63,863 nt of DNA. Source: a virus. Location of the stretch: IMG/VR virus record IMGVR_UViG_3300044695_005730, positions 1 to 63,863 of that record; one strand, 5' to 3'. Every line of letters begins with the position of its first letter. The first letter of the stretch is position 1. The notes beneath the pieces were generated by a model. The model ran no database searches. It worked only from the letters and a program-made list of their open reading frames with translations, and was not told where the DNA came from. Below are positions 18,782 to 34,502 of this stretch, one piece after another. A program made the translations under genes and the position numbers.

Positions 18782-18784
18782 CCT

Positions 18785-20255: not shown

Positions 20256-20257
20256 TT

Positions 20258-21304: not shown

Positions 21305-21323
21305 TCTAAAAAGCGTAAGTAAG

Positions 21324-21722: not shown

Positions 21723-21727
21723 TATTT

Positions 21728-21758: not shown

Positions 21759-21774
21759 AAGCACTCAAACTCAA

Positions 21775-21912: not shown

Positions 21913-21914
21913 TT

Positions 21915-22136: not shown

Positions 22137-22142
22137 TAAATA
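22135..22142 (+). promoter_or_regulatory. T4-type late promoter (GATAAATA)
   Basis: GATAAATA lies 24 nt before the ATG at 22167 and overlaps the previous stop. Confidence 0.5.
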
Positions 22143-22166
22143 ACTCAAGGTAGTTTTTAGATACAG

Positions 22167-22751
22167 ATGAAAACCTTTCAGGAGTTTATTGTCGAAGCAT
22201 ACGATAAGGAGGTTATGGGTTCTTCTCAAATTAGAAGAACTGGTGAAGGCGGACGTATCGGTGCTGAACGTAAAAAGTCTACTCCTGAAAGGCGTCGTGT
22301 AAAGGCAGTTGGTGGTGGTAAAACTGAACCAGTTTCCTATAAAGATAGAAAGGACATTGGTACTCAAAGACAAGCATCCACAAGAGTTCAACAACCAACT
22401 CAAGAACGTGGAAGTTCTGATGTAAAAGCAAAGGCAGCTGCGGCAGCAAAAGAAGAAAGAAAGAAGGCAGCATTAGCAAGAATTGCTGCAAAGAGAGGTG
22501 GTGGAGAAGCACCAGCAGCATCTAAACCTAAAGCAAAGGAAGCATCTGCAACTGCAAGCAAACTTCTATCCAAAAAGAAAGAAGAAAAACCTGTAAGTCC
22601 TGATTATAAGCCAGCAAAAGCATCTGGTTTAAGCAGACAAGAAAGATTGAAAGTAACCAGACAAGGTGAAGCAAAACTGAGAGATTTGGTTCTTAAATCA
22701 ACAGGCAAGACATCTGAAAAGCAATTAAAGCATCGCTACACTTCTCGCTGA
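22167..22751 (+). CDS. Putative internal head (ejected) protein with T4-like CTS
   Basis: A 194 aa strongly basic protein. The first residues, MKTFQEFIVEA, closely match the T4 internal-protein capsid-targeting sequence (MKTYQEFIAEA type), which the gp21 prohead protease removes after the Glu. The rest is a low-complexity Lys/Ala/Arg chain (KAKAAAAAKEERKKAALARI), suited to lying among packaged DNA. Preceded by a late promoter. Role inferred: packaged and injected into the host at infection. T4 homologues protect DNA from or inhibit host defences, but no such activity can be assigned here. Confidence 0.7.
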   Translation: MKTFQEFIVEAYDKEVMGSSQIRRTGEGGRIGAERKKSTPERRRVKAVGGGKTEPVSYKDRKDIGTQRQASTRVQQPTQERGSSDVKAKAAAAAKEERKKAALARIAAKRGGGEAPAASKPKAKEASATASKLLSKKKEEKPVSPDYKPAKASGLSRQERLKVTRQGEAKLRDLVLKSTGKTSEKQLKHRYTSR

Positions 22752-22756
22752 TACCT

Positions 22757-22787
22757 ACTTGGATCCTCTAAAGTGTCTCAGTAGTAT
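22757..22787 (+). promoter_or_regulatory. GATC-promoter element, copy 3
   Basis: TTGGAT (22759), 17 bp, TAGTAT (22782-22787). Leader AAGCACTGAGCACTAA to ATG 22804. Confidence 0.75.
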
Positions 22788-22803
22788 AAGCACTGAGCAC
22801 TAA

Positions 22804-23037
22804 ATGACCTTCACTGTTACTGACAAACCCCAAATCATTAACGGCATTGAGCACACTGTCACTGCTGTTAATGGTTTGGACCGTGTGGAGATTAACACAA
22901 AACTTCACTACATTGGCGACCAAATTATGAAACTGCGGATGCAACAAGATGCACTCGTTCAGATGCGTAACTTGATTGACCGACAATGTGAAATTGGTGA
23001 AATGGATTCCTTGTTTGATGAGTTGTTTGGTGGTTGA
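22804..23037 (+). CDS. Hypothetical protein, 77 aa
   Basis: Beta strands first (MTFTVTDKPQIINGIEHTVT), then a helix (IMKLRMQQDALVQMRNLIDR) and acidic end. Ends before a terminator. Confidence 0.6.
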   Translation: MTFTVTDKPQIINGIEHTVTAVNGLDRVEINTKLHYIGDQIMKLRMQQDALVQMRNLIDRQCEIGEMDSLFDELFGG

Positions 23038-23049
23038 TATACTGTCACC

Positions 23050-23085
23050 AGAGCACCCTAGATGCCTCTAGAAGTGCTCTATTTT
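23050..23085 (+). terminator. Rho-independent terminator
   Basis: AGAGCAC (23050-23056) pairs with GTGCTCT (23074-23080), with inner CTAGA/TCTAG pairing, followed by ATTTTAG. Confidence 0.65.
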
Positions 23086-23114
23086 AGTCTTTAGATACCA
23101 AACCACTTGAACTG

Positions 23115-23306
23115 ATGAAATACATTAAAATCCCTGAAACTGCACTTGAAAGGCTAATTGAAGGTCTTGAAAGTGCAGTGAATGTGTGCTATACTGCTCC
23201 TAACAATCCTGGTATTGAAGGGTATCCTTATGCGACTGGATATTCTCGCTCTGCGATGCAACAAGTCATCAAAGACCTTCAATCGCTGAAGACTCAAGCA
23301 AAGTGA
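23115..23306 (+). CDS. Hypothetical protein, 63 aa
   Basis: MKYIKIPETALERLIEGLES, then a Gly/Tyr-rich loop (EGYPYATGYSRSAMQQVI). Helical ends. No family recognised. Confidence 0.6.
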   Translation: MKYIKIPETALERLIEGLESAVNVCYTAPNNPGIEGYPYATGYSRSAMQQVIKDLQSLKTQAK

Positions 23307-23311
23307 CTGTA

Positions 23312-23342
23312 ACTTGGATCCTCTAAAGTGTCCTTATAATAT
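23312..23342 (+). promoter_or_regulatory. GATC-promoter element, copy 4
   Basis: TTGGAT (23314), 17 bp, TAATAT (23337-23342). The last two -10 bases are the first two of an ATG at 23341; a further in-frame ATG lies at 23356. Confidence 0.75.
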
Positions 23343-24588
23343 GATGACGAACCAAATGCAAATCCAACTCCGTCCACATCAGGAACGTGGCGTTGCTGCT
23401 ATGCAACAGCATAACAAAGGACAACTTGTAGTTCCGACTGGAGGAGGAAAGACTCTGAAGATGATCTATGATGCTCTGCGTGAGTTGCAGTCTGAAACTC
23501 CCCAGACTATTGTAGTGGTTGCTCCTCGCATTCTGCTGGCAGAGCAACTCTCTGCAGAGTTCCTTGAGTTTATCACCAATGCTGCTGTGCTTCACATTCA
23601 CAGCGGTGAAACTCATCACGAATCCTCTACTCATCCTCGCGTAATCCGCAAGTGGGTTGATGCCAATGCTGACAATCACAAACTGATTGTAACCACCTAT
23701 CACTCTCTGTCTCGCCTTCAAGCAGCAGAGATTGATGTGGATACGATCTACTTTGACGAGGCACATAACAGCGTTCAGCGTCACTTCTTTCCTGCAACTG
23801 AGCACTTTGCTGCTAATGCACAACGCTGCTACTTCTTTACTGCAACTCCCAAGCATTCCCTTGCTATGGGTAAACCAGGCATGAATGATGCGTCTGTTTA
23901 TGGTCAGGTAATCTGCAAAGTTCCTGCTCCTGAGCTAGTTGAAGGTGGATACATCGTACCCCCTAAAGTCATTGTCAAGCAACTGGAGATGGTAAAGGGC
24001 AAGCAGACCAACTTTGACCGCGATGCAGAGAATCTACTGGAAACGATTGATGACAATGCTGTAGGCAAGATTCTTGTTTGTGCTAAGGCAACCAAGCAAA
24101 TCGTGTCTCTGGTGTCTGAAACTGATTTCTGCCACGAACTACAGCAGCGTGGTTACTCTTGGATGTATATCACTGCCAAGACTGGTGCTGTCATTGATGG
24201 CAAGAAAGTCAATCGTGAGGTATTCTTTGACACGCTCTCTGCCTGGGGTAAGGATAACGACAAGAAGTTTGTTGTTCTACACCATAGCATCCTAAGTGAG
24301 GGCATCAATGTGTCTGGACTTGAGGCAGTGTTGTTTATGCGGAATATGGACTTTATTGGCATTTCCCAGACTATCGGACGCTGCATCAGGTTGCATCACG
24401 ATGATGCTCGCAATCTTGCTGCTGGCAATATCCAACCTGGAGCACTGGATTCCTATACCAAATCGTTTGGTCTTGTGTGTATCCCTGTGTATTCCAAGGT
24501 TGGTATTGCTACTGCCCGCAGTGTTCAGGCAGTTGTTGATACAATTTTTGAAAAGGGAGAACCTGCCGTGTCGGTGGTGAGGCGGTGA
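23341..24588 (+). CDS. SF2 DNA helicase, UvsW-like
   Basis: A 415 aa superfamily-2 helicase. It has an N-terminal Q-like IQLRPHQERGVAAMQQ, Walker A VVPTGGGKTLKM (~residue 30), motif II YFDEAHNSV (~145), motif III FFTATP, and motif VI QTIGRCIRLHHDD (~335). The family includes T4 UvsW, which remodels forks and branched DNA and helps switch replication mode. Shorter than T4 UvsW (587 aa), lacking its extra N-terminal domain. Start could be 23341, 23344 or 23356, as the first lies in the -10 of the element. Higher G+C codon use than the structural genes. Confidence 0.85.
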   Translation: MMTNQMQIQLRPHQERGVAAMQQHNKGQLVVPTGGGKTLKMIYDALRELQSETPQTIVVVAPRILLAEQLSAEFLEFITNAAVLHIHSGETHHESSTHPRVIRKWVDANADNHKLIVTTYHSLSRLQAAEIDVDTIYFDEAHNSVQRHFFPATEHFAANAQRCYFFTATPKHSLAMGKPGMNDASVYGQVICKVPAPELVEGGYIVPPKVIVKQLEMVKGKQTNFDRDAENLLETIDDNAVGKILVCAKATKQIVSLVSETDFCHELQQRGYSWMYITAKTGAVIDGKKVNREVFFDTLSAWGKDNDKKFVVLHHSILSEGINVSGLEAVLFMRNMDFIGISQTIGRCIRLHHDDARNLAAGNIQPGALDSYTKSFGLVCIPVYSKVGIATARSVQAVVDTIFEKGEPAVSVVRR

Positions 24589-24680
24589 GTCTCACCCTAG
24601 TCTCAATGAGAACCCTGTCCACCACTGAAGCAAAAACCCGATTTTTCTGCAATTCTACTGCAGAGGTGTCATAGGTCATC
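24587..24680 (+). repeat. 94-nt intergenic repeat, copy A
   Basis: Aligns without gaps to 28886-28979; the last 74 nt differ at about six positions. Begins at the helicase stop with a small hairpin GGTGA/TCACC. Precedes the gene at 24828. Confidence 0.85.
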
Positions 24681-24725
24681 CATCCCAACAAAATCAACGA
24701 TTTTTTAGAAAGTGTAGAATAGGGC

Positions 24726-24754
24726 TTGACATCTCTACCCAAAGTTGTTAGACT
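24726..24754 (+). promoter_or_regulatory. Strong sigma70-like promoter
   Basis: TTGACA (24726-24731), 17 bp, TAGACT (24749-24754), 73 nt before ATG 24828. Not part of the 16-copy family. Confidence 0.7.
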
Positions 24755-24827
24755 GAAAAAGTCAACCACAAAATACAAAAACGGTTGATTGTTAAAACTT
24801 AAATTAGCAAAAACAAAAGAGGCTAAA

Positions 24828-25973
24828 ATGACATTTAAGGAATTGCTTTGCGTCTATAAATGCTACGAAACAAAAGTAGATGATAAGACCAAAGAATATT
24901 TGCAAAGTTTTGGATCAGTAGATAATTCTCCAGAAGGTCTTCCTTTGATGGAAGATGTTATTTCAAAGTATAATTCGGGAGAAATTGCTGAGGGGTCTAC
25001 TGTAATATGTTTGGGCAGAGTTGGTGATCTTTGGAGTGATCCCACTTATAATCGTATTGATGAACTTCGATATGGAAATCAAAAACTTCATATTGAGAAG
25101 CGTGGTGGATTCTCTTATGATGCTGCAGATACTCTTTCTGCATATTGTCGTCCATCTCTCAAGGCAGTTCTTACCAAAGGAAATAATCGGGCATCGAAGA
25201 GATATGCGTGTGGTAGAGATTCAAATTCCCGTCTAGTTATTTCCCTTAAACTTCATCGTAAGAATATTTCTTATGAGGAGATGATTCGTATTGAATCTCT
25301 TGACCACAATACAGATTGTAATTATCGCACTAACCAGACTGGTGATGATAAGTTTAAATCTGCATATTATGCTGGAGAAGAGTGGGCAACTAATCTCTAC
25401 GAATACCTTTCTAAGTTTAACATTGGTATCGCGGGAACTCTTGATGGAGCAAAATTTAGTTGTCCTTCTCATTCTTATTTGAGTACTGCTATTCGTCTGG
25501 CAGGTAGAGAATATACAACAAAATATCTGACTGCATTTACTACTCACGAATGTGCAAAAGAAGTTGAAGGTAATGCTACCGTTGCCGGTTCTCTTTTCTT
25601 GAAAACATTTCATTCTTATATTGAAGATGTTGATAAGAAGAATAATGTTGATTCATTCTCTGGAATGATGAAATGGTATTTCACTGAATATGGTCCGTCT
25701 TTAAGTGCATTTGACCCAGATGCCAGAAATCTTAAACAATCGGATGTTGTTCAGGGTAATGGTGTATATAAAGGAAATGAACCTGCTGTTGCTCGTTTTG
25801 TATTTCTTTATAATGATTACTGCCGCATTAAACGACTGAAGTTTAAAGGAACTCAAAATACATCTATTCCTTTTGAGGGGTCTGATAGCACTGCTTGGAA
25901 TAAGTTTCTTGCAGAATCTAATCCATTGATGAAACCTGCACTTGGACAACTTGCAGTAACCAAGTTCTTTTAG
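24828..25973 (+). CDS. Unrecognised 381-aa protein
   Basis: ATG 24828 follows AGAGGCTAAA; an upstream TTG frame is rejected. Features: a regular alpha/beta N-terminal third; YCRPSLKAVLTKGNNRASKR; a stretch LDHNTDCNYRTNQTGDDKFK near residue 160 that resembles an HNH/ParB-like D-H-N-R cluster; and a helical C-terminus. No family could be assigned. It has its own promoter and a 94-nt repeat upstream, so it is separately regulated. A DNA-binding or nuclease role is only a guess. Confidence 0.6.
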   Translation: MTFKELLCVYKCYETKVDDKTKEYLQSFGSVDNSPEGLPLMEDVISKYNSGEIAEGSTVICLGRVGDLWSDPTYNRIDELRYGNQKLHIEKRGGFSYDAADTLSAYCRPSLKAVLTKGNNRASKRYACGRDSNSRLVISLKLHRKNISYEEMIRIESLDHNTDCNYRTNQTGDDKFKSAYYAGEEWATNLYEYLSKFNIGIAGTLDGAKFSCPSHSYLSTAIRLAGREYTTKYLTAFTTHECAKEVEGNATVAGSLFLKTFHSYIEDVDKKNNVDSFSGMMKWYFTEYGPSLSAFDPDARNLKQSDVVQGNGVYKGNEPAVARFVFLYNDYCRIKRLKFKGTQNTSIPFEGSDSTAWNKFLAESNPLMKPALGQLAVTKFF

Positions 25974-25985
25974 AGAGTATAAAGT

Positions 25986-26162
25986 ATGAAACAAGGATTC
26001 ACGATGTTCAAAGACACATATGCTGCAATTCCTTACGGGAATCAGTATCTCATCATCTATAATGGTCAGCAACTTGATAAACTTTGTAGGACTGAGAGTT
26101 CTGCACGAAAGTATATCACAGACCACAAGAAAGGTGTATCAATGGGCAAACTTCCCGTGTGA
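25986..26162 (+). CDS. Hypothetical protein, 58 aa
   Basis: MKQGFTMFKDTYAAIPYGNQ, then YLIIYNGQQLDKLCRTESSA: strands followed by a helix, KYITDHKKG. ATG 25986 lies 12 nt after the previous stop. Unknown. Confidence 0.55.
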   Translation: MKQGFTMFKDTYAAIPYGNQYLIIYNGQQLDKLCRTESSARKYITDHKKGVSMGKLPV

Positions 26163-26167
26163 TGCTA

Positions 26168-26198
26168 ACTTGGATCCTCTAAAGTGTCCCTCTAATAT
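26168..26198 (+). promoter_or_regulatory. GATC-promoter element, copy 5
   Basis: TTGGAT (26170), 17 bp, TAATAT (26193-26198). Leader of about 25 nt to ATG 26224, the longest in the set. Confidence 0.75.
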
Positions 26199-26223
26199 AA
26201 CCACTGATTTTCTTAAAACTCCA

Positions 26224-26427
26224 ATGATTTTTGTCACCTATCCCGACCACGGTTGCGTTTATACTCTGTCACAAGAAGATGGAGATGAGTTGTATTATGC
26301 TCCCATCAATTCAAATGGTAATGTGAATCTTGAAGAGTTTGCACCTGTAGATTTAGACGGTGCAGATATGGATGAAATGGAACTCTTTGATATTCGCAAT
26401 CGTCTTCGTAAACTGGTTGAGGTTTGA
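26224..26427 (+). CDS. Hypothetical acidic protein, 67 aa
   Basis: MIFVTYPDHGCVYTLSQEDG... beta strands then an acidic helix (DGADMDEMELFDIRNRLRKL). Start after the element. Confidence 0.6.
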   Translation: MIFVTYPDHGCVYTLSQEDGDELYYAPINSNGNVNLEEFAPVDLDGADMDEMELFDIRNRLRKLVEV

Positions 26428-26434
26428 GTTTCTA

Positions 26435-26465
26435 ACTTGGATCCTCTAAAGTGTCCCTGTAGTAT
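26435..26465 (+). promoter_or_regulatory. GATC-promoter element, copy 6
   Basis: TTGGAT (26437), 17 bp, TAGTAT (26460-26465). An ATG overlaps the -10 (26464); another in frame lies at 26479. Confidence 0.75.
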
Positions 26466-27375
26466 GAGCACCAAATCCATGCAAAATAAGCACCTTGAGC
26501 ACCCTGAAGACTGCATCCTTACGGGTGATCTTACTGTTCTGGACTGGTTTGTAGAGTCTGATAGTACGGTAAGCGTCAAGATTGATGGTGCTCCTGCTAT
26601 AGTCTTCGGCACAGATCCTGAGACTGGTAAGTTTTTTGTGGGCACCAAGTCTGTGTTCAACAAGAAAAAGATCAAGGTTAATTATAGTATTGAAGACATA
26701 TTGCGTAATCATGGTGACACTGTTCGCGTTGCAGAGATTCTTATTGCCTGCTTCGACAATCTGCCCCGAATTGATGGTATCATACAAGGTGACTTCATCG
26801 GATACGGTGGGAACGATACTTATTGCCCCAACACTATCACTTACAAGTTTCCTAGTGTAGTAGAAGAGGCAATTGTCTTTGCCCCTCACACTACCTATTC
26901 TGGTCTTAATCTGCGGGAGTGTGTTGCATCGTTTGGTGCAGATGTCCCTGAATGTGAGAATGTGAAGTGGGTGCAACCTGAAGCATCGTTGAGCCCTTAT
27001 CGTGAGGATTTGGAGGATGTGTGTAAGTTTGCTAAGCAAATGAGCACTCTATGTGAGTTTGTAAGCGATAAGAAGGCAACACAAATCAAAAAAGAGATTA
27101 ACTCCTGCATCAGGGAGCAACGGGTCATCTGTGAGGATGAAATTGCAGAAAAATGTGATTGTGATAAGAACCTGATTCGTTTGTGGAAGTTGGTTGCATC
27201 TATCAAAGCAGATTTGTTCCTGTTCATTCACGAAGAGGATGAGATTGAATGTTATCTGTGGGATGTGCAATCCTTTCACGAGGGTTATGTCATCACCAAC
27301 AAGTTTGGCACCTATAAAGTAGTTGACCGCGAGACATTCTCTCACGCAAACTTTACTGCTGTCAAGAGTTGGTAA
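26464..27375 (+). CDS. Ligase-like KxDG protein (DUF6267-like)
   Basis: A 303 aa protein beginning KHLEHPEDCILTGD. VSVKIDGAPAIVFG near residue 40 has the KxDG motif I of covalent nucleotidyltransferases (DNA/RNA ligases, capping enzymes), where the Lys forms the nucleotidyl adduct. GKFFVGTKSVFNKK may be the following motif and IIQGDFIGYGGND near 105 a motif-III-like strand. The C-terminal half is helical with many Cys (REQRVICEDEIAEKCDCDKN). Phage relatives are usually left as unknown (DUF6267-like). A nucleic-acid end-modifying role is plausible, not shown; motifs IV and V were not confidently seen. Confidence 0.6.
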   Translation: MSTKSMQNKHLEHPEDCILTGDLTVLDWFVESDSTVSVKIDGAPAIVFGTDPETGKFFVGTKSVFNKKKIKVNYSIEDILRNHGDTVRVAEILIACFDNLPRIDGIIQGDFIGYGGNDTYCPNTITYKFPSVVEEAIVFAPHTTYSGLNLRECVASFGADVPECENVKWVQPEASLSPYREDLEDVCKFAKQMSTLCEFVSDKKATQIKKEINSCIREQRVICEDEIAEKCDCDKNLIRLWKLVASIKADLFLFIHEEDEIECYLWDVQSFHEGYVITNKFGTYKVVDRETFSHANFTAVKSW

Positions 27376-27380
27376 TGCTT

Positions 27381-27411
27381 ACTTGGATCCTCTAAAGTGT
27401 ACCAGTAGTAT
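27381..27411 (+). promoter_or_regulatory. GATC-promoter element, copy 7
   Basis: TTGGAT (27383), 17 bp, TAGTAT (27406-27411). The ATG of the next gene (27410) overlaps the -10, and no other early start exists. Confidence 0.75.
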
Positions 27412-27568
27412 GAGAAAAACACATCGCTTCCAAACTTTCAAAGAGGCACTCAACTTTCTGATGAGTGAGTTGAAGATGAGCAATCAACAGGCAACTCATT
27501 TCATTTGGGACAATCAGTTTACTATGGGAACTGATCGTGCAATTTGGATTACTGAACCTGCAAACTGA
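27410..27568 (+). CDS. Hypothetical protein, 52 aa
   Basis: MRKTHRFQTFKEALNFLMSE... helical. The ATG lies inside the -10 of element 7; the next Met would remove a third of the chain, so the start is problematic. Confidence 0.5.
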   Translation: MRKTHRFQTFKEALNFLMSELKMSNQQATHFIWDNQFTMGTDRAIWITEPAN

Positions 27569-27570
27569 TT

Positions 27571-27771
27571 ATGACTCTCCCATCCTACAATGCAATCCAG
27601 TTTCACACTAAAGAGGAGCATCTTGCAGCACTTTATGATGCTTGTCTGCTGATTGTGAATACTTACAAACAGACGGACATTCTTGATTTTTACTTTGTTG
27701 ATGGTGTAACTCCTTATGGTTTTGTGAAGTTTGCCCGTTCTATTACAAACAACATCGCGGAAAGTAACTGA
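27571..27771 (+). CDS. Hypothetical protein, 66 aa
   Basis: MTLPSYNAIQFHTKEEHLAA... helical then beta (DFYFVDGVTPYGFVKFARS). Start in the TGATTATGAC context. Confidence 0.6.
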   Translation: MTLPSYNAIQFHTKEEHLAALYDACLLIVNTYKQTDILDFYFVDGVTPYGFVKFARSITNNIAESN

Positions 27772-27772
27772 A

Positions 27773-27982
27773 ATGACTGACTTCTACGATTATGTTTTGA
27801 GTTTTTATGGTGCTGATGGATTGTATCCTATGGGAGCAACTCTGAAACTCATCAAACAAGCAACTTCCACTCACATTAAGATACTTAAACTGAAAGGTGA
27901 TGAGTTTGCTGGTGACAGTATTGACCGCGAATGTGTAAGGGATTTGTTAATCTCCAAGTACAATCTTAAGTTTTCCCGATGA
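27773..27982 (+). CDS. Hypothetical protein, 69 aa
   Basis: MTDFYDYVLSFYGADGLYPM, then helix and charged end (RECVRDLLISKYNLKFSR). ATG 27773 is preferred over the longer overlapping frame. Unknown. Confidence 0.55.
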   Translation: MTDFYDYVLSFYGADGLYPMGATLKLIKQATSTHIKILKLKGDEFAGDSIDRECVRDLLISKYNLKFSR

Positions 27983-28242
27983 CTTACTCTAACCTCTCCA
28001 AGATTAAACCTAAACTGCGTACATCTGGTAATGTAACAGGAAACTTTGGTCGTCCAAAGTCTAAAGCAGGTTCTTCACTTAATGAGATTGGAATGAGCAA
28101 CAAAGAGACTATCAAATGTGCCACACCTGATGAGTATCTGGCACGGCTTCATTATGCCTTTGACAATACTGAAGACAAGAAATTGAAACAGTTTCTTTAC
28201 ACTGAGATTCGCAAGATTCATGTTCAGCGTGGCACTTGGTGA
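27979..28242 (+). CDS. Hypothetical protein, 87 aa
   Basis: Basic, low-complexity N-terminus (KIKPKLRTSGNVTGNFGRPK) then a helical domain (LARLHYAFDNTEDKKLKQFL). Possible nucleic-acid binder; unproven. Confidence 0.6.
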   Translation: MTYSNLSKIKPKLRTSGNVTGNFGRPKSKAGSSLNEIGMSNKETIKCATPDEYLARLHYAFDNTEDKKLKQFLYTEIRKIHVQRGTW

Positions 28243-28251
28243 GGGTTAGTA

Positions 28252-28282
28252 ACTTGGATCCTCTAAAGTGTCCTAGTAGTAT
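28252..28282 (+). promoter_or_regulatory. GATC-promoter element, copy 8
   Basis: TTGGAT (28254), 17 bp, TAGTAT (28277-28282). Next ATG (28281) overlaps the -10. Confidence 0.75.
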
Positions 28283-28520
28283 GAACAACACCATCGTTTC
28301 CGAAGTCTACTCCTACCACACCAATTGGAAGGAAGGTAAAGTCAATCAAATGTGGATTGAGCAAATTGGTAATGCTGATTGCGGCAACAAATATGTTGCT
28401 GTTGCACACAATCCTCGCAACGGTTCTACAATGGAGATGAGCAATCCTCGCACATCTTACCATGAAACTCTCAACTGGGTTCGCGGTTTCTGTGGCACTT
28501 TCTGTATCCTCCCTGCCTGA
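28281..28520 (+). CDS. Hypothetical protein, 79 aa
   Basis: MNNTIVSEVYSYHTNWKEGK, beta-rich with ADCGNKYVAVAHNPRNG and a Cys-rich end (FCGTFCILPA). Only usable start lies in the element's -10. Confidence 0.5.
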   Translation: MNNTIVSEVYSYHTNWKEGKVNQMWIEQIGNADCGNKYVAVAHNPRNGSTMEMSNPRTSYHETLNWVRGFCGTFCILPA

Positions 28521-28522
28521 TT

Positions 28523-28675
28523 ATGACTAATCCAACTTGGGAAGAACTCAAACAAGAGGCACTCACTGAAGCATTAGAGTTCTACATCTATCGACTCAAA
28601 GAGGACAACTGCAATCAAGCAGCAATAGATTTATTCACTCAAGTTCTCAAAGAAGTTAATCCTAACGATGACTAA
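28523..28675 (+). CDS. 50-aa helical protein
   Basis: MTNPTWEELKQEALTEALEF... acidic helical bundle fragment. TGATTATGAC junction. Unknown. Confidence 0.5.
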   Translation: MTNPTWEELKQEALTEALEFYIYRLKEDNCNQAAIDLFTQVLKEVNPNDD

Positions 28676-28829
28676 CACTATCAGTCGCCAACACTGGGAC
28701 ACTCTTTATACTAAACTCTACGAGGCATATGAAGAATGTTCCAAGAACTATGATGACACTTATCGCCAAATGATTGGTCAGGTTCTTGACCATATGATTT
28801 ACAATCAACCCTACCTGAACATCAAATAG
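28668..28829 (+). CDS. 53-aa hypothetical protein
   Basis: MTNTISRQHWDTLYTKLYEA... helical and Tyr-rich. Overlaps the previous gene by 8 bp. Confidence 0.5.
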   Translation: MTNTISRQHWDTLYTKLYEAYEECSKNYDDTYRQMIGQVLDHMIYNQPYLNIK

Positions 28830-28885
28830 TAGAGCACACTGATTACACTCTAAACTGAAAGGGTCGCAAGGGTGCCAACCCCTCC

Positions 28886-28979
28886 GAGTCTCATCTGAGA
28901 CTCGCTGAGAACCCTCTCCACCACTGAAGCAAAAACCTGATTTTTCTTCAATTCTACTGCAGACGTGCCATAGGTCATC
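28886..28979 (+). repeat. 94-nt intergenic repeat, copy B
   Basis: Gap-free match to 24587-24680. Here the 5' part forms a perfect hairpin CGAGTCTC/GAGACTCG (28885-28904). Precedes the short gene at 29025. Confidence 0.85.
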
Positions 28980-29024
28980 TGCTGCAGTGAAATCATCAAC
29001 TTTTTCCAAAATACAAACAAACTC

Positions 29025-29168
29025 ATGAAATACGAAGTTAAGCTCTACATTGGCGGCAAAGTCTTCAGTGAAGAAGTATATGCCAACGACCAAAGGGCAG
29101 CACGAGAGACTGCACAAGCACGAAATCCTACAGCAAAAGTAATTGGTGTAAACGCAAAGTTTCTGTGA
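29025..29168 (+). CDS. 47-aa hypothetical protein
   Basis: MKYEVKLYIGGKVFSEEVYA then an Arg/Ala helix and VIGVNAKFL: a beta-alpha-beta micro-domain, like several others here. 94-nt repeat upstream. Confidence 0.6.
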   Translation: MKYEVKLYIGGKVFSEEVYANDQRAARETAQARNPTAKVIGVNAKFL

Positions 29169-29173
29169 TAGAA

Positions 29174-29204
29174 ACTTGGATCCTCTAAAGTGTCGCAGTA
29201 GTAT
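29174..29204 (+). promoter_or_regulatory. GATC-promoter element, copy 9
   Basis: TTGGAT (29176), 17 bp, TAGTAT (29199-29204). Leader AAGCAACCAACCAA to ATG 29219. Confidence 0.75.
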
Positions 29205-29218
29205 AAGCAACCAACCAA

Positions 29219-29809
29219 ATGAGCAAACTTACCACGGTTCAGGTTTATGGTACACTGAAAGTAACTGATTTCAGTGTATTTTCCAAACCCGCAAAGAACA
29301 AAGGTGCTCGCGGTCAATTGTTAGAAACTGTCCTTGGAGTTCCTAACTCTTCTGACCTCAAAGATCTGGAGGATGGGGAGATTAAGACTTTCACTGTTGG
29401 TGAGAGCATTGCTGCCACACAATTGAAGCACTGTTTGTCTGAAATCATCGAAGATTCTGTGTCTTTTGATGATAGCAAGGTCGGACAGAAACTACAACAA
29501 ACTCTGTATGTTGGTTTCACTCGCTCCAACGATTATGTGGGTTGTGCAATTCTGAATGAGGAAACTCATCCTGAACACTATCAGGAACTGCGTGAAGATT
29601 TTGACTATATTTGCCAGAAGATTCGCCGTGCATTTGATACTGAAACTGAACTGAATACTATCACTGGACCTAACGGACTGCTGCAGATTCGCACCAAAGC
29701 ATCTAAAACCAATGGTCGCTATGTTCCTCTGAGGTTTGCAGGTGTGACCCTTAAGGATAAAGGAATGGCATTCTATCTGTGTGGTCAATTTGGACGCAAT
29801 CTGTTCTGA
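29219..29809 (+). CDS. MutH/Sau3AI-like endonuclease
   Basis: A 196 aa protein with the MutH fold pattern. GARGQLLETVLGVPNSSDLK near residue 30 matches the family's GxxGxLLE..LG opening, then an acidic segment and GEIKTF supplies the ExK half of the D...ExK site (Asp candidates 2-8 residues upstream; MutH spaces D and E by 7, here 8 is the closest fit). DDSKVGQKLQQTLYVGF near 90 matches MutH's ...KL..vLwv strand, and GLLQIRTKA near 160 the QIRPKA motif. MutH and Sau3AI cut at GATC. Here nicking at unmethylated GATC is inferred, paired with the phage Dam at 17505. Driven by element copy 9. Confidence 0.65.
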   Translation: MSKLTTVQVYGTLKVTDFSVFSKPAKNKGARGQLLETVLGVPNSSDLKDLEDGEIKTFTVGESIAATQLKHCLSEIIEDSVSFDDSKVGQKLQQTLYVGFTRSNDYVGCAILNEETHPEHYQELREDFDYICQKIRRAFDTETELNTITGPNGLLQIRTKASKTNGRYVPLRFAGVTLKDKGMAFYLCGQFGRNLF

Positions 29810-29815
29810 ACACTA

Positions 29816-29846
29816 ACTTGGATCCTCTAAAGTGTCCTAGTAGTAT
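29816..29846 (+). promoter_or_regulatory. GATC-promoter element, copy 10
   Basis: TTGGAT (29818), 17 bp, TAGTAT (29841-29846). Next ATG (29845) overlaps the -10. Confidence 0.75.
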
Positions 29847-30030
29847 GAAGACTAACTCAAACCCCTACGTTCAAACCCTCATCGAGATGGGTTATGATGA
29901 ATCTGACTGCCGTATGGTTGCTGATGCTGGACGACAGAATGTAACCTATCCGCGTACTATCTACGGTCGTACTTTCCAGACTGAAACTGAATATAAAGAC
30001 GCTCTTGCTGACTTTATCAACGGTCTCTGA
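29845..30030 (+). CDS. UBA-like small protein, 61 aa
   Basis: NPYVQTLIEMGYDESDCRMV reads like a three-helix UBA-type bundle; the C-terminus is TEYKDALADFINGL. The start is inside the element's -10. Function unknown. Confidence 0.5.
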   Translation: MKTNSNPYVQTLIEMGYDESDCRMVADAGRQNVTYPRTIYGRTFQTETEYKDALADFINGL

Positions 30031-30035
30031 TAGTA

Positions 30036-30066
30036 ACTTGGATCCTCTAAAGTGTCCTAGTAGTAT
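30036..30066 (+). promoter_or_regulatory. GATC-promoter element, copy 11
   Basis: TTGGAT (30038), 17 bp, TAGTAT (30061-30066). ATG overlaps the -10; an in-frame ATG also follows at 30080. Confidence 0.75.
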
Positions 30067-30316
30067 GAACGCTTCCCAAATGCAAAACACTTACACTTCA
30101 CCCGATACAAACAAGGTTTATACCATCATCGAATCGCAATCTGAGCGTGGTGCATGGGATGAGAATGGCAATTATGCTCCGAAAGTTATCACCCAGTACA
30201 ACATCTATGATAACACTCAGATGGTACAATTTGCATTTGATGTAGATGGAATTGCCAAATCTGTGAGGCATTATGAAGGTTTCACTGATGGTTGGACTTC
30301 CTCACGATTTGACTGA
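30065..30316 (+). CDS. Hypothetical beta-rich protein, 83 aa
   Basis: Core KVYTIIESQSERGAWDENGN followed by strands (ITQYNIYDNTQMVQFAFDVD). Two possible starts (30065 or MQNTYTSPD at 30080). Confidence 0.55.
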   Translation: MNASQMQNTYTSPDTNKVYTIIESQSERGAWDENGNYAPKVITQYNIYDNTQMVQFAFDVDGIAKSVRHYEGFTDGWTSSRFD

Positions 30317-30321
30317 TAGTA

Positions 30322-30352
30322 ACTTGGATCCTCTAAAGTGTCCTAGTAGTAT
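30322..30352 (+). promoter_or_regulatory. GATC-promoter element, copy 12
   Basis: TTGGAT (30324), 17 bp, TAGTAT (30347-30352). Next ATG (30351) overlaps the -10. Confidence 0.75.
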
Positions 30353-30521
30353 GAGCACAACTTACACTGTCCGATTCACTTCTGATGCCCTCGATTCTCC
30401 CGAGTATATTGGACCTTTCTTCTCTGAAGATGATGCCGAAGACTATTGCGATGCTCGCAACAGTTCTCTATCTCTAAGCGGCATTCCTTCCTGGGTTGCA
30501 TGTTACTCTGTTGTTGATTGA
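30351..30521 (+). CDS. 56-aa hypothetical protein
   Basis: MSTTYTVRFTSDALDSPEYI... beta-alpha-beta pattern with FFSEDDAEDYCDARNS. It contains no internal Met, so the only ATG is that inside the -10. Confidence 0.5.
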   Translation: MSTTYTVRFTSDALDSPEYIGPFFSEDDAEDYCDARNSSLSLSGIPSWVACYSVVD

Positions 30522-30526
30522 TTGAA

Positions 30527-30661
30527 ATGAGAATTGCACTTGTATTTGCTACACTTTTCTTTGGTATTTCATTCGGTGCAAAAGCTATTGCAACCGTGAA
30601 TGAGTATCAAGAAGCACAAGCAGAAAAGTTCTGTCAAATTGACCCCAACTATTGCAAATGA
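30527..30661 (+). CDS. Small exported protein, 44 aa
   Basis: MRIALVFATLFFGISFGAKA is a short Sec-type signal peptide with an AKA cleavage site; the mature part is ~24 residues with two Cys (FCQIDPNYCK). Resembles the signal-bearing gene at 7618 in layout. Confidence 0.55.
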   Translation: MRIALVFATLFFGISFGAKAIATVNEYQEAQAEKFCQIDPNYCK

Positions 30662-30885
30662 AATCAATGAATATCTCTCCTGAAAAACAACAACAACTCG
30701 AAGAATCTGCAAGTTTGGTTGGTGAAGCATTTGGGCGATTAGTTGGTAGTCTGATTGCCACTGCAATCATTGCAGGTGTGTTCTATGCAATTCTACACTT
30801 TATGGTAGGTTTGTCTATCACCTATGTGCAAGTCCTTGGTGTGATTCTGATACTCGATTTCCTCAAAAACTTTCTGAAGAAATGA
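30658..30885 (+). CDS. Two-span membrane protein, 75 aa
   Basis: Helical start then LIATAIIAGVFYAILHFMVG and VQVLGVILILDFLKNFL membrane helices. ATG 30658 preferred over a nearby TTG. Overlaps the gene before. Confidence 0.6.
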   Translation: MKSMNISPEKQQQLEESASLVGEAFGRLVGSLIATAIIAGVFYAILHFMVGLSITYVQVLGVILILDFLKNFLKK

Positions 30886-31124
30886 TTTCCCTTCCTAATC
30901 CTACAAACAAAATGACACTGACTAACGAACAACTTTCGACTCTAATTGATAACTATGCCAATCATGTAATTGATGGTATGGATATGGATACTTTAGTCCA
31001 GTTTGCATATGATAGTCTCGTTGCTGAGTTTAACAAATACAGTGAGAAAGAACTTATCTCTGAGATTGGAGAATTGTATGATAATGACACACTGGAGATG
31101 TTGTTAGAAAGTGTCAAGGACTGA
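30882..31124 (+). CDS. Hypothetical acidic protein, 80 aa
   Basis: LTNEQLSTLIDNYANHVIDG... helical, acidic. EKELISEIGELYDNDTLEML resembles the end of the gene at 34795, suggesting a small paralogous family. An internal ATG at 30912 (MTLTNEQ) is an alternative start. Confidence 0.6.
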   Translation: MISLPNPTNKMTLTNEQLSTLIDNYANHVIDGMDMDTLVQFAYDSLVAEFNKYSEKELISEIGELYDNDTLEMLLESVKD

Positions 31125-31135
31125 GAGTGTTACTA

Positions 31136-31166
31136 ACTTGGATCCTGCAAAGTGTCTCAGTAGTAT
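31136..31166 (+). promoter_or_regulatory. GATC-promoter element, copy 13
   Basis: TTGGAT (31138), 17 bp (with CCTGCAAAGTGT variant), TAGTAT (31161-31166). Confidence 0.75.
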
Positions 31167-31509
31167 GAGCACCAACCAAATGATTCAAGATAACATCGAT
31201 CGCATTCAAGATAGCATCAACCTGGCATCCAAACTTGCCCGCGACAATTATGATGCTCGCAATGGTATCATTGACCGTCTGAATGCTACTGTAGTTGTTG
31301 ATGTTTGCTCCAAGGCATCATATATTGCAGGTGAGTGTTCTTATTACTTTCCTCTGCACAATCAGAACGGAGATAAGATTAACGAGGTAAAACTCTATTG
31401 TCGTTGCTCTCCGACTGTAAAAGGTGGAGTTCGCTTCTCTTATACTCTGAACGGTAAGACTATTGCTCGTACCAAGATTGTAAATCGGATGATTGAATTG
31501 GGAGTCTGA
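31165..31509 (+). CDS. Hypothetical protein, 114 aa
   Basis: Helical start (IDRIQDSINLASKLARDNYD), then beta strands (KLYCRCSPTVKGGVRFSYTL). Starts at 31165 or at MIQDN (31180). Confidence 0.55.
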   Translation: MSTNQMIQDNIDRIQDSINLASKLARDNYDARNGIIDRLNATVVVDVCSKASYIAGECSYYFPLHNQNGDKINEVKLYCRCSPTVKGGVRFSYTLNGKTIARTKIVNRMIELGV

Positions 31510-31662
31510 ATGTCACGCAAGACTCTAACATTCAAATCACCAGATAGAGTGAAAGTTGTTACATTAATTTTCATTGTTGCACTTGTCTTTTCACCATCAG
31601 TAAGACAAACAACCGCATCCATTCTTCATACCACAGCCGACATTCTTTCCCCACAACAATGA
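31510..31662 (+). CDS. Single-span membrane protein, 50 aa
   Basis: KVVTLIFIVALVFSPS is one membrane helix; N-terminus is basic. Stop overlaps the next ATG. Confidence 0.5.
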   Translation: MSRKTLTFKSPDRVKVVTLIFIVALVFSPSVRQTTASILHTTADILSPQQ

Positions 31663-31835
31663 AGCAAACTCTTATTGATTCGATGTCGTCTACACTTATG
31701 GAGCGTCTTGAGTTCTTTGTAAGTCAAGATGATTATGCCACATCAGATGCACTTTATTCTGAATTTATTGTGAATGGAGTAGATCCAGAAGATGGAGAGT
31801 ATGAGTGGTTCTTTATGCAATCTCTTTGCTGTTAG
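31659..31835 (+). CDS. 58-aa acidic protein
   Basis: MKQTLIDSMSSTLMERLEFF... acidic helical, ending FFMQSLCC. ATGA overlap. Element 14 follows. Confidence 0.5.
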   Translation: MKQTLIDSMSSTLMERLEFFVSQDDYATSDALYSEFIVNGVDPEDGEYEWFFMQSLCC

Positions 31836-31837
31836 AA

Positions 31838-31868
31838 ACTTGGATCCTCTAAAGTGTCCTAGTAGTAT
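31838..31868 (+). promoter_or_regulatory. GATC-promoter element, copy 14
   Basis: TTGGAT (31840), 17 bp, TAGTAT (31863-31868). ATG overlap with the -10 and an in-frame ATG at 31891. Confidence 0.75.
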
Positions 31869-32103
31869 GAGCACCAACGAAACCAAGAAAATGAATCTGT
31901 ATATCATCAACGAAGTCCTGTCTGATTATACCTCTGGAATGGTAGTTATTGCTGCTGAATCTAAAGAATCTGCCCGTGAGTTCTTTATCGCACAGTTCAG
32001 CGAGTATCATGCTGAAGAGTTTGATAAGTATGCAAAGTTCACTGTGATTGAAGGAGTGAATCATTCTGCTGGTATTGTAGACTATGTGTACGGTGGAGGT
32101 TAA
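31867..32103 (+). CDS. Hypothetical protein, 78 aa
   Basis: MNLYIINEVLSDYTSGMVVI is the conserved-looking core, a ferredoxin-like alpha/beta fold (AAESKESAREFFIAQFSEYH). The start may be 31867 or 31891. Confidence 0.55.
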   Translation: MSTNETKKMNLYIINEVLSDYTSGMVVIAAESKESAREFFIAQFSEYHAEEFDKYAKFTVIEGVNHSAGIVDYVYGGG

Positions 32104-32129
32104 TCAAACTTATTCCTTCAGTAATTCAA

Positions 32130-32160
32130 ACTTGGATCCTGCAAAGTGTCCTAGTAGTAT
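32130..32160 (+). promoter_or_regulatory. GATC-promoter element, copy 15
   Basis: TTGGAT (32132), 17 bp (CCTGCAAAGTGT variant), TAGTAT (32155-32160). Long CA-rich leader to ATG 32195. Confidence 0.75.
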
Positions 32161-32194
32161 AAGACCCACCCACCCCAAACTCAAACTCAAACAA

Positions 32195-32506
32195 ATGCGT
32201 AAAATCGAATCCCAAATGAATCAAGCAATCAATCAAGAGATTGATTGGAAGAAGGATAACACTCAAGTCATTAACATTGAAGGCACAAGTTTCGTCTATC
32301 TGTTTGACAATCTGATTGCAATGATTGGTGATACATGGTTGGAATTGTTTGATGGTGGTTATAAGTCAGTAACCACTAAATCACGTCTCAATGCTATTCT
32401 CCAAGCACACGGAAATGGAGAGTATGTGTATCAAAAGAACTTCAACTGGTTTGTATCAACCAAGGATGGAGAAGTTCCCTTTAACAACAGCATCAAACTG
32501 AACTAA
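32195..32506 (+). CDS. Hypothetical protein, 103 aa
   Basis: MRKIESQMNQAINQEIDWKK, then beta strands (GTSFVYLFDNLIAMIGDTWL) and SRLNAILQAHGNGEYVYQKN. Helix-strand-rich; no family recognised. Confidence 0.6.
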   Translation: MRKIESQMNQAINQEIDWKKDNTQVINIEGTSFVYLFDNLIAMIGDTWLELFDGGYKSVTTKSRLNAILQAHGNGEYVYQKNFNWFVSTKDGEVPFNNSIKLN

Positions 32507-32509
32507 GTT

Positions 32510-32701
32510 ATGAACAATCAAGTCTTCGGAGTCTTTGCCCGTGGTAATGATTATTACTCGCAACTTGAACTTCACAAACTATTCTTTAACGAACAAGATG
32601 CAGAAGTTTATGCACAAGAACTTCGCGAAATAAAGGATGAATATGAACCTGATGAAATGCAATATGAAGAAGTTGAAGTCTGCAAACTGAAGGTAAATTA
32701 A
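32510..32701 (+). CDS. Hypothetical acidic protein, 63 aa
   Basis: MNNQVFGVFARGNDYYSQLE, then AEVYAQELREIKDEYEPDEM: beta-alpha with a long acidic helix. Unknown. Confidence 0.6.
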   Translation: MNNQVFGVFARGNDYYSQLELHKLFFNEQDAEVYAQELREIKDEYEPDEMQYEEVEVCKLKVN

Positions 32702-32704
32702 CTG

Positions 32705-32842
32705 ATGAAAAAGTATATTTACCAACACTGCAATACGAATCAAATCAAGACAATTATTGCAAGGTCAGAGTATAAAGCACACACTCAAAACTTTGGCAAT
32801 CTTGCTGGTTACAAGTTCGTTCAATCACTCTCTCTTAACTGA
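32705..32842 (+). CDS. 45-aa hypothetical protein
   Basis: MKKYIYQHCNTNQIKTIIAR... basic. Overlaps the next gene by one base (TGATG). Unknown. Confidence 0.5.
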   Translation: MKKYIYQHCNTNQIKTIIARSEYKAHTQNFGNLAGYKFVQSLSLN

Positions 32843-33018
32843 TGACTAACGAACAAAAGATTGATTCACTTGTTGAACTTCTCAATGATGTAATGCACAC
32901 TCTGAATATGAAACAGTATTGTATTGATGATGCAACTGAATCTCATCAATGTGAGGTAGAAGCAGACAACTATCACCAACAAATGCTGAACATTCTTTAT
33001 TCTCAAGAATGCAACTAA
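32842..33018 (+). CDS. 58-aa hypothetical protein
   Basis: MTNEQKIDSLVELLNDVMHT... helical, His/Cys-containing (DATESHQCEVEADNYHQQ). The stop is immediately followed by the ATG of a 21-aa peptide. Confidence 0.5.
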   Translation: MTNEQKIDSLVELLNDVMHTLNMKQYCIDDATESHQCEVEADNYHQQMLNILYSQECN

Positions 33019-33084
33019 ATGATAAACAAGGTGCTTGCGCTTAAGCACTTTGTGCGAGGAAAGGAGTTAGCCTCTAGTAAGTAA
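33019..33084 (+). CDS. 21-aa peptide
   Basis: MINKVLALKHFVRGKELASS-K begins right after the preceding TAA. The same bases fold into alternative hairpins, so it may instead be RNA. Weak case. Confidence 0.3.
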   Translation: MINKVLALKHFVRGKELASSK

Positions 33085-33142
33085 AGAAAGTGACTTCCGT
33101 AGAGTATAGATAATTCAACTAATTGCTAGATGGGTGTATAGA

Positions 33143-33172
33143 GAGAGGGACTGGTTATCCCTCTCTTTTTTT
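33143..33172 (+). terminator. Strong Rho-independent terminator
   Basis: GAGAGGGA (33143-33150) pairs with TCCCTCTC (33158-33165), loop CTGGTTA, then seven T. Ends the + strand unit just before the oppositely oriented HNH gene. Confidence 0.9.
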
Positions 33173-33176
33173 ATGC

Positions 33177-33716
33177 TTATGGATGAGGTAAAGTATTCAT
33201 TACCTTACGCAATCCATATTGATTGATATAATTTTCTAATGCACCTTCAATTATACTATTTGTGAACTCATAAGAGTTAGGAACTGGTAATCCTTTACGA
33301 TGAGAAGCAGCGTGAACTTCTTTAATCTTATTTGTTACATAATTATCCAGAACAAATCCCTTAGTTTGTGATAAATGTTCCATATTTTGTTTTCTACTTA
33401 TCCACTCAAGATTCTCAATTCTGTTATCACATTGGTTGCGATTGATATGATTAACTTCCAGTGTGAAATCGTCACAGGGTAAGTATGCCATAGCAACTAA
33501 CCTATGAACATACAAATTACGCTTATTTCCCTTGTCATCAGATAGTCTAACGAACAAATAGTTGCCCCTTTTCTTTGCCCATCCTGGACGTAGTTTCTTT
33601 ACCTTGTTATACTTGAAAGACCAAACATTGCCATTCACATCTATAGCATAATCGCCAAATTTCTCTAAACCTTTGATTTCATTTAGGTTCTTAAGTCTAA
33701 CTGTTGGGACTTCCAT
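33177..33716 (-). CDS. HNH homing endonuclease
   Basis: A 179 aa minus-strand gene, the only convincing one in the window. Residues ~15-60 (LEKFGDYAIDVNGNVWSFKY) resemble a NUMOD4 DNA-binding module. Then VHRLVAMAYLP, EVNHINRNQCDNRIENLEW give the HNH His/Asn/Asn motif. The C-terminal ~60 residues may be a DNA-binding tail (KIKEVHAASHRKG). No interrupted gene or intron core is evident nearby, so it looks free-standing. It lies between a terminator and a 14-bp hairpin. Spreads by cutting alleles that lack it. Confidence 0.85.
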   Translation of the reverse strand: MEVPTVRLKNLNEIKGLEKFGDYAIDVNGNVWSFKYNKVKKLRPGWAKKRGNYLFVRLSDDKGNKRNLYVHRLVAMAYLPCDDFTLEVNHINRNQCDNRIENLEWISRKQNMEHLSQTKGFVLDNYVTNKIKEVHAASHRKGLPVPNSYEFTNSIIEGALENYINQYGLRKVMNTLPHP

Positions 33717-33721
33717 TTCAT

Positions 33722-33761
33722 AGTATTTTCTACTAAATCTATGTAGTAGAAAATACTTTTT
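33722..33761 (+). terminator. 14-bp perfect hairpin with T-run
   Basis: AGTATTTTCTACTA (33722-33735) pairs perfectly with TAGTAGAAAATACT (33744-33757), loop AATCTATG, followed by TTTTT on the + strand. On the minus strand it sits 5 nt upstream of the HNH ATG and could block its ribosome site. Confidence 0.7.
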
Positions 33762-33985
33762 AGAGAGTGGATAATGTATGATTAAATTATAGTGAGTAAC
33801 TGATAAAAAGTATAATAATTGTGTTATATTGTTATAATCTCTCTGTGTGCTTATAAACCTTCGAGAGTCTTGTTATCTTAGGCAGTATAACATAAGGACC
33901 GCACTTTTGTCAATCTCAGGGTCACAAAATCCTCACAATCCCCCCGCCAAAATGTCACACCCCCACATAAATATCCCCAACGCCC
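33762..33985. other. Non-coding gap after the HNH gene
   Basis: Between the hairpin and the promoter at 33986 no convincing gene is seen. There are AT-rich -10-like motifs (TATAAT near 33832), a C-rich tract (CCCCCCGCC) and CATAAATA at 33966-33973, a possible late promoter. It separates the HNH insertion from the next unit. Confidence 0.5.
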
Positions 33986-34014
33986 TTGACATTAACCCCA
34001 CATCATCTTATAGT
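33986..34014 (+). promoter_or_regulatory. Consensus sigma70 promoter
   Basis: TTGACA (33986-33991), 17 bp, TATAGT (34009-34014), 27 nt before ATG 34042. Confidence 0.75.
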
Positions 34015-34041
34015 AGTTCCATAACACCAAGGAGAACACTT

Positions 34042-34215
34042 ATGTCGGTTGCCTATCAACAAGCACAGAAGCAGCGTTATAGGGTCACTCTGGATCTATC
34101 AGTGTTCGGTGACTTCGACCCCCACCAGATTGATTGGGAGAAGTTATTTAAGTTGGAACCTGCTGAACACTGTGATGCATATGTTGAGGACTTGAATACA
34201 CCCGACAGCTGGTGA
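34042..34215 (+). CDS. Hypothetical protein, 57 aa
   Basis: MSVAYQQAQKQRYRVTLDLS... ending in an acidic tail. Start chosen by AAGGAGAACACTT and the consensus promoter upstream; a longer reading would cover the promoter. Unknown. Confidence 0.65.
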   Translation: MSVAYQQAQKQRYRVTLDLSVFGDFDPHQIDWEKLFKLEPAEHCDAYVEDLNTPDSW

Positions 34216-34237
34216 GTTAGTATCATTTTATACCAAT

Positions 34238-34289
34238 TAGTTTTGTCCCGAAACTGTATAGATATTGATGCTATTTTGGGACAAAACTA
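34238..34289 (+). promoter_or_regulatory. 12-bp inverted repeat at a start codon
   Basis: TAGTTTTGTCCC (34238-34249) and GGGACAAAACTA (34278-34289) are perfect inverses. The second arm ends on the A of ATG 34289. It could be an RNA hairpin hiding the start or an operator. No SD is visible. Confidence 0.65.
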
Positions 34290-34456
34290 TGAGACCTAAA
34301 AACTACACTTTTCTGGGCAAAACTGACAGAATCCGCGTGCCTTATGTACAACAGTTTAGCACAGTCTTAAATGAGTTAAATCGTATCGCAGAGTTAGGTC
34401 GCGACCCCACCGAATATCTGGAAGAGTTTATAGAGCGTCTGCAGTTGGTTGAATGA
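34289..34456 (+). CDS. Hypothetical protein, 55 aa
   Basis: MRPKNYTFLGKTDRIRVPYV... helical, Arg-rich, ending LEEFIERLQLVE. Translation may be controlled by the inverted repeat ending on its ATG. Confidence 0.6.
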   Translation: MRPKNYTFLGKTDRIRVPYVQQFSTVLNELNRIAELGRDPTEYLEEFIERLQLVE

Positions 34457-34457
34457 A

Positions 34458-34488
34458 ACTTGGATCCTCCAAAGTGTACCAGTAGTAT
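34458..34488 (+). promoter_or_regulatory. GATC-promoter element, copy 16
   Basis: TTGGAT (34460), 17 bp (CCTCCAAAGTGT variant), TAGTAT (34483-34488). Leader AAGGACAACCCCAA to ATG 34503. Last copy in the window. Confidence 0.75.
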
Positions 34489-34502
34489 AAGGACAACCCC
34501 AA

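Follow-up and report, generated by a model that had tools for sequence, protein, structure and literature searches.

A MutH/Sau3AI-type endonuclease of cyanophages is accompanied by a Dam methylase and may form with it a GATC-directed cut-and-protect pair

The window analysed here, a stretch of 63,863 nucleotides of viral DNA, encodes a 196-residue protein which, by its predicted fold and catalytic set, belongs to the MutH/Sau3AI superfamily. The cultured phages that carry this gene encode a Dam methylase as well, and the genomes of carriers are depleted in GATC. We consider it somewhat better than an even chance, at roughly 55%, that the phage-owned Dam and the MutH-like protein form a GATC pair that acts like a restriction-modification system on unmethylated host or rival DNA. 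The nuclease would be a single-domain, methylation-sensitive, GATC-directed endonuclease from the MutH/Sau3AI branch of the PD-(D/E)xK enzymes, and would supply the cutting half of the pair, with the phage Dam as the protecting half. Dam would mark the GATC sites of the phage DNA; the nuclease would nick or cut GATC that is unmethylated (and possibly also where it is hemimethylated), whether in rival DNA or in the chromosome of the host; and the phage DNA would be spared, with the host either shut down or broken down as a source of nucleotides. That the enzyme is active, specific for GATC and sensitive to methylation, and that host DNA is its target, we infer; the relationship of each protein to known GATC enzymes suggests that the two recognise one sequence and that methylation blocks cutting. 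The features concerned are listed in Table 1.

Table 1. Position of the nuclease gene, its presumed partner and neighbouring features (window coordinates unless a locus is given)
Feature	Position	Strand	Evidence or comment
MutH/Sau3AI-like PD-(D/E)xK endonuclease gene	29219..29809	+	ORF, NCBIfam MutH, AlphaFold2 and Foldseek, residue mapping
Dam-family N6-adenine methyltransferase, 272 aa	17505..18323	+	PF02086, TIGR00571, E. coli Dam structures
Superfamily 2 DNA helicase, phrog_16	23314..24588	+	PF04851/PF00270 and phrog_16; context only
Intergenic repeat copy immediately before the nuclease gene (AACTTGGATCCTCTAAAGTGTCGCAGTAGTATAAGC)	29166..29208	+	Repeat families D1/D2
phrog_6124 gene, 144 aa	L149:3388-3822 and L150:3397-3831		In the slot held by the nuclease in S-RIM8

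The open reading frame begins with ATG and ends with TGA. Its coordinates and strand agree exactly with those of the first-pass annotation, and it is not a chance frame, as indicated by its PHROG family, by its occurrence in phage records and by the NCBIfam MutH match. The motifs that had been read from it, KGARGQLLETVLG, DGEIKTF, KLQQTLYV and QIRTKA, are all present and follow one another in the order found in MutH.

The protein belongs to phrog_15364 (E 2.6e-74), for which PHROGs lists the function as unknown. A tblastn search found the gene in 25 cultured phage records, every one of them a Synechococcus phage, with S-CAM7 as the best match (68% identity to the window protein), and with 59% identity in S-IOM18 and 56% in S-RIM8; the initial description of the sequence as cyanophage is thus well founded. 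Two scans of IMG/VR gave 105 and 142 confirmed matching stretches of viral contigs. In cellular genomes the sole match was an 8.6 kb contig of a Rhodobacteraceae MAG (L148, NZVE01000007.1; 56% identity), which is most likely a stray or misbinned cyanophage contig. The family is a cyanophage-only one. A weak match in Syn19 (E 2e-4), which covered 77 profile positions in a 97-residue frame, was rejected as a homologue; one Syn19 frame that was examined had stops and no motifs, although it was possibly not the exact matching frame. Nearly all the records annotate the gene as a hypothetical protein, while that of WH25-B already names it DNA mismatch repair protein MutH. The literature search found no paper on a cyanophage MutH or discussing phrog_15364, and none showing activity or specificity for this family, which we count against its reading as a GATC nuclease.

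The NCBIfam MutH model matches residues 16-195 of the window nuclease with E 7.7e-10 and matches 38 of the 38 relatives tested (best E 1.4e-11). The score of 38.2 bits does not reach the equivalog cut-off of 243 bits: by curated score the protein is no MutH equivalog, and a mismatch-repair name is unwarranted at present. Pfam MutH (PF02976) gave no match even at E 10, the only hint from Pfam being MvaI/BcnI (PF15515; E 0.05, below cut-off). Homology to MutH is known from the NCBIfam model, from hhalign and from the fold search; PDB sequences searched with phmmer and with profiles yielded no MutH and only noise. When the nuclease family was compared by hhalign with E. coli MutH, whose sequence was checked against 1azo/2azo, the two aligned over 163 columns with a probability of 94, E 1.5e-7 and approximately 28% identity.

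Structure prediction and comparison with MutH, the check proposed in the first-pass annotation, gave a MutH/Sau3AI fold. The AlphaFold2 model, made from 38 aligned sequences, has a mean pLDDT of 83 and a pTM of 0.80. When it was compared with the PDB using Foldseek, the first nine matches were all MutH or Sau3AI and the tenth was noise. MutH was represented by 2aoq, 2azo, 2aor and 1azo (E 4.9e-6 to 1e-4), and Sau3AI, at ranks 6-9, by 4pxg and 7xm0 (E 1e-3 to 4e-3). The fits have an rmsd of 5-8 A and a TMq of 0.49-0.63, so that the model shares the fold of MutH and Sau3AI but is not superimposable on them in detail. We therefore hold with high confidence that this is a MutH/Sau3AI-type PD-(D/E)xK protein. 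The original identification stands on fold, NCBIfam match and invariant positions, and was if anything slightly understated.

Ten residues are invariant among 47 aligned relatives: E36, D49, D52, E54, K56, H71, K91, R158, K160 and Y186. The profile alignment pairs E36 with E56 of MutH, D49 with D70, E54 with E77, K56 with K79 and K91 with K116, and these phage residues are the predicted catalytic set. The acidic and lysine positions of the catalytic triad are thus all retained in close homologues, as the first-pass annotation had asked of a true nuclease. R158 and K160 pair with R184 and K186, which we take to be the GATC-reading residues of MutH, and are predicted to read GATC in the phage protein. 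Y186 pairs with Tyr212 and is predicted from this alignment to sense methylation; in MutH, Tyr212 is important in determining methylation status (PMC3848065).

The same annotation had noted that the candidate aspartate and ExK are separated by one residue more than in MutH. This is literally correct for D46, but D46 is unlikely to be the catalytic residue: it is replaced by N in 8 and by K in 2 of the 47 relatives, where it cannot be catalytic because the aspartate is absent, and we rejected it on this ground. The catalytic aspartate is likely, from conservation, to be D49, three residues nearer to ExK. D49 gives the arrangement D-x4-E-x-K, whereas the D-x6-ExK of MutH is two residues longer. 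According to a review, the gap between the PD and D/ExK parts can shrink to 4 residues, as in BcnI (PMC4081073), and BcnI, MvaI and Sau3AI have a structural core in common (PMC7337904).

This shorter spacing, together with the divergence from MutH (38 against 243 bits, and no match to PF02976), is what would be expected if the protein kept the MutH fold but had come to do something else or to recognise another target, such as serving replication, recombination or packaging as a structure-specific nuclease, or acting as a DNA-binding regulator. The link to Dam would then reflect a shared early-gene neighbourhood only. The invariance of the base-reading and methyl-sensing positions argues against such a change, as do the Dam association and the GATC avoidance described below, and we regard it as decidedly improbable.

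The Dam of the window matches PF02086 with E 4e-61 and the TIGR00571 dam model with 259 bits (cut-off 115 bits), and aligns over its full length with E. coli Dam structures (E 3e-73). It is predicted to protect GATC, and is the partner that we propose for the nuclease. It differs from a second, more divergent D12 methylase that is present in most of the cyanophages compared. In the phage collection, 64 records contain this Dam when counted at E below 1e-80, and all are cyanophages. What is new is that the association with the nuclease is complete in culture: the E. coli-Dam-like methylase is encoded by 25 of the 25 cultured nuclease carriers, and the nuclease is found in none of seven cyanophages without this Dam. 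Among cultured records Dam does occur without the nuclease (S-RIM50, ACG-2014b), while the reverse does not occur. Seven metagenomic nuclease records show no Dam, but these may be fragments and are hence uninformative.

The arrangement of the two genes varies. In the window, Dam lies 11 kb upstream of the nuclease and is not adjacent to it, which we count against a paired system. The order is Dam, nuclease, helicase in three relatives (L002, L003, L005); Dam directly follows the nuclease in two (L024, L058); and in others the distance is 1-1.5 kb, 4-5 kb or 7 kb. In S-8S29 (L004:4110-5588) the two form one continuous ORF of 492 codons, annotated as DNA adenine methylase with the nuclease as its end; this possible fusion is seen in a single record and may have arisen by recent loss of a stop codon. 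In S-RIM50, which belongs to the same genus as S-RIM8, and in ACG-2014b, the slot after Dam is taken by the unrelated phrog_6124 gene, whose function is unlisted. Among carriers the pair is thus retained even as its arrangement shifts. The helicase that adjoins the nuclease in relatives would suit a nuclease with an altered role, but an association with Dam that is kept while distance and order vary is not what a shared neighbourhood would predict.

The region around the gene contains several repeats. Sixteen near-identical intergenic copies of one repeat (AACTTGGATCCTCTAAAGTGTCCTAGTAGTATGA) lie within 18315-34498 of the window, each with GGATCC and each placed before or between small genes, the nuclease gene included. 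The repeat is possibly a leader or promoter; as a sigma-70 promoter it scores only 8/12, below the level for listing in the promoter scan. Relatives have a similar sequence, in many cases lacking GATC, upstream of their nuclease gene; the intergenic repeats of S-CAM7 are of another set. We considered the GATC within GGATCC as a conserved regulatory target and rejected this, as it is frequently missing from the aligned upstream regions of relatives (L012, L018, L014 and L024 are examples). A separate direct repeat of 125 nt (81% identical) occurs at 24587-24711, after the helicase gene, and at 28886-29010, just upstream of the nuclease region. The window has no match in Rfam. An HNH_3 endonuclease gene (33177-33716, minus strand, E 2e-11) lies amid plus-strand genes and is probably a homing-type element, and positions 1070-3166 encode a 698-residue protein with FkbM-type methyltransferase, radical SAM and SPASM domains.

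The abundance of GATC was calculated as observed/expected (obs/exp) using a maximal-order Markov model for tetranucleotides, with 40-60 kb sampled per genome. In 15 nuclease carriers the ratio is 0.13-0.77, including 0.51 for the window, and in three cyanophages with Dam only it is 0.15 (S-RIM50), 0.62 and 0.63, as against 0.78-1.01 in seven cyanophages with neither gene. Cultured carriers differ from the phages with neither gene with p = 0.0006 (Mann-Whitney), a value that overstates independence, as the carriers are related and five of the seven cultured ones are Tefnutvirus or close to it. Among 16 palindromes tested, GATC alone was strongly separated in both comparisons; AATT showed a small effect in the cultured set (p = 0.0012), and CATG differed only in the full set (p = 0.007). 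The host, for example through its own restriction, is by itself a poor explanation of the depletion, because phages of the same host differ: on WH7803, S-PM2 has a ratio of 0.78, against 0.13 for S-RIM8 and 0.21 for WH25-B, and S-RIM8, S-IOM18 and WH25-B together span 0.13-0.34. That it is specifically GATC that is avoided also speaks against an altered role for the nuclease.

Some of these figures count against our reading. Depletion is no more than mild (0.67) in S-CAM7, the closest relative among cultured phages, and the window itself is patchy, with a ratio of 0.32 at 6-36 kb and 0.78 at 36-64 kb, the structural half. S-RIM50 is equally poor in GATC (0.15) and has no nuclease, so Dam, or a nuclease present in the past, could explain the depletion, and we attribute it to the nuclease itself only tentatively. 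Orthodox Type II restriction-modification systems are marked by avoidance of their recognition site, for which the reference study used a cut-off of 0.78, and such avoidance can persist as a trace of systems since lost (PMC4687349). In samples from S-RIM8 (L151), S-RIM50 (L152) and S-H25 (L213-L215) GATC obs/exp is 0.08-0.15, with gaps between sites of up to 7.7 kb. Other palindromes are also scarce in the window: GGCC occurs once against 22 expected, and obs/exp is 0.21 for AGCT, 0.25 for CATG and 0.40 for ACGT.

A companion methylase in the same genome, as in the 25 cultured carriers, and an underrepresented recognition site, here GATC, are both traits of Type II restriction-modification, and by partnership and site avoidance the nuclease behaves like the nuclease of such a system. 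The many cyanophages that lack this Dam are GATC-rich (0.78-1.01) and would for both reasons be sensitive targets in the same hosts, so the same GATC nuclease could serve mainly to exclude rival or superinfecting Dam-less phages rather than to degrade the host genome. The present data do not separate host from rival targets. However, the chlorovirus restriction enzymes, when tested, were not responsible for mutual exclusion (PMC7019647), and we think exclusion improbable as the main use.

The main rival to a cut-and-protect pair is methyl-directed mismatch repair, in which Dam and MutH would come from the phage, and the MutS and MutL of the host would recruit the phage nuclease, after phage replication, to nick the new unmethylated strand at hemimethylated GATC. 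The best sequence match is indeed to MutH and not to a restriction enzyme, the methyl-sensing tyrosine is conserved, the required Dam is present, and the LREDW of E. coli MutH has a phage counterpart, LREDF; moreover, cyanobacteria have MutS and most have MutL (PMC5101192). Against this, MutS and MutL were sought in 9 carrier records and neither was found, and the host MutL has evolved without MutH. GATC is selected against rather than kept: 24% of sampled positions in S-RIM8 and 12% in S-H25 are more than 2 kb from any GATC, and gaps of up to 7.7 kb compare with a quoted MutH reach of approximately 2 kb. Overall we consider repair rather unlikely.

MutH is reported to be missing from all cyanobacteria (PMC5101192) and to occur only within one group of gamma-proteobacteria (PMC5101192, PMC4390886). 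DmtA, the GATC methylase, reportedly occurs in almost all cyanobacteria other than the picocyanobacteria (PMC4390886), and GATC in picocyanobacterial hosts is therefore probably unmethylated. We favour the cut-and-protect pair because MutS and MutL were not found in the nine carrier records, because GATC often lies beyond the reach of MutH, and because the hosts lack MutH and their DNA is likely to be unprotected. Destruction of unmethylated host or rival DNA, one of the functions suggested in the first-pass annotation, is accordingly the one that best fits the Dam partnership, the GATC avoidance and the missing phage MutS and MutL; for packaging, another of those functions, none of the results speaks either way. 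It counts against the pair that MutH by itself has only weak activity until MutL stimulates it (PMC3848065). Only tentatively do we go further and describe a cyanophage Dam-MutH self/non-self system, split and once fused, in which a repair-type nicking enzyme has been turned into a viral restriction enzyme and the genome has been reshaped by GATC avoidance.

A conserved MutH-like enzyme in cyanophages places a repair-type nuclease in a viral lineage where it was unexpected, given the reported absence of MutH from cyanobacteria and its restriction to a gamma-proteobacterial group. If the proposed pairing is correct, it would be a bacteriophage counterpart of the chlorovirus restriction-modification systems and would provide a simple mechanism for selective destruction of host DNA in marine Synechococcus. 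The pairing would likewise explain why GATC is scarce in these phages and give a testable purpose to orphan phage Dam genes.

Among known systems, MutH (E. coli 1azo/2azo; H. influenzae 2aoq/2aor) resembles the phage nuclease in fold, in motif order, in having a single domain and in the presence of Dam in the same genome, and its E56, D70, E77, K79, K116, R184, K186 and Tyr212 all have counterparts. The phage protein differs in its low identity (approximately 28% by hhalign), its score below the equivalog cut-off and its D-x4-ExK in place of D-x6-ExK; it is phage-encoded, MutS and MutL were not found in the phages, the host phylum is MutH-less, and the genome avoids GATC. Sau3AI and other Type II restriction endonucleases for GATC (4pxg, 7xm0) share the fold branch, a Dam-type methylase partner and, probably, GATC as the site, but the single Sau3AI chain of approximately 490 residues contains two MutH-like domains, in contrast to one domain in 196 residues here. 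MvaI and BcnI (PF15515) are also relatives of MutH, and BcnI has the same short D-to-ExK spacing of 4 (PMC4081073); they have other recognition sites, and are absent among the significant fold matches of the nuclease. The chlorovirus restriction-modification systems (CviAI, CviAII and others) differ in having a eukaryotic algal host and unrelated proteins; the chlorovirus nuclease is packaged in the virion. They are alike in that the virus owns both a methylase and its cognate nuclease: in chloroviruses the two genes are adjacent, and the nucleases are held responsible for rapid degradation of host DNA (PMC7019647), the outcome that we propose for the cyanophage pair.
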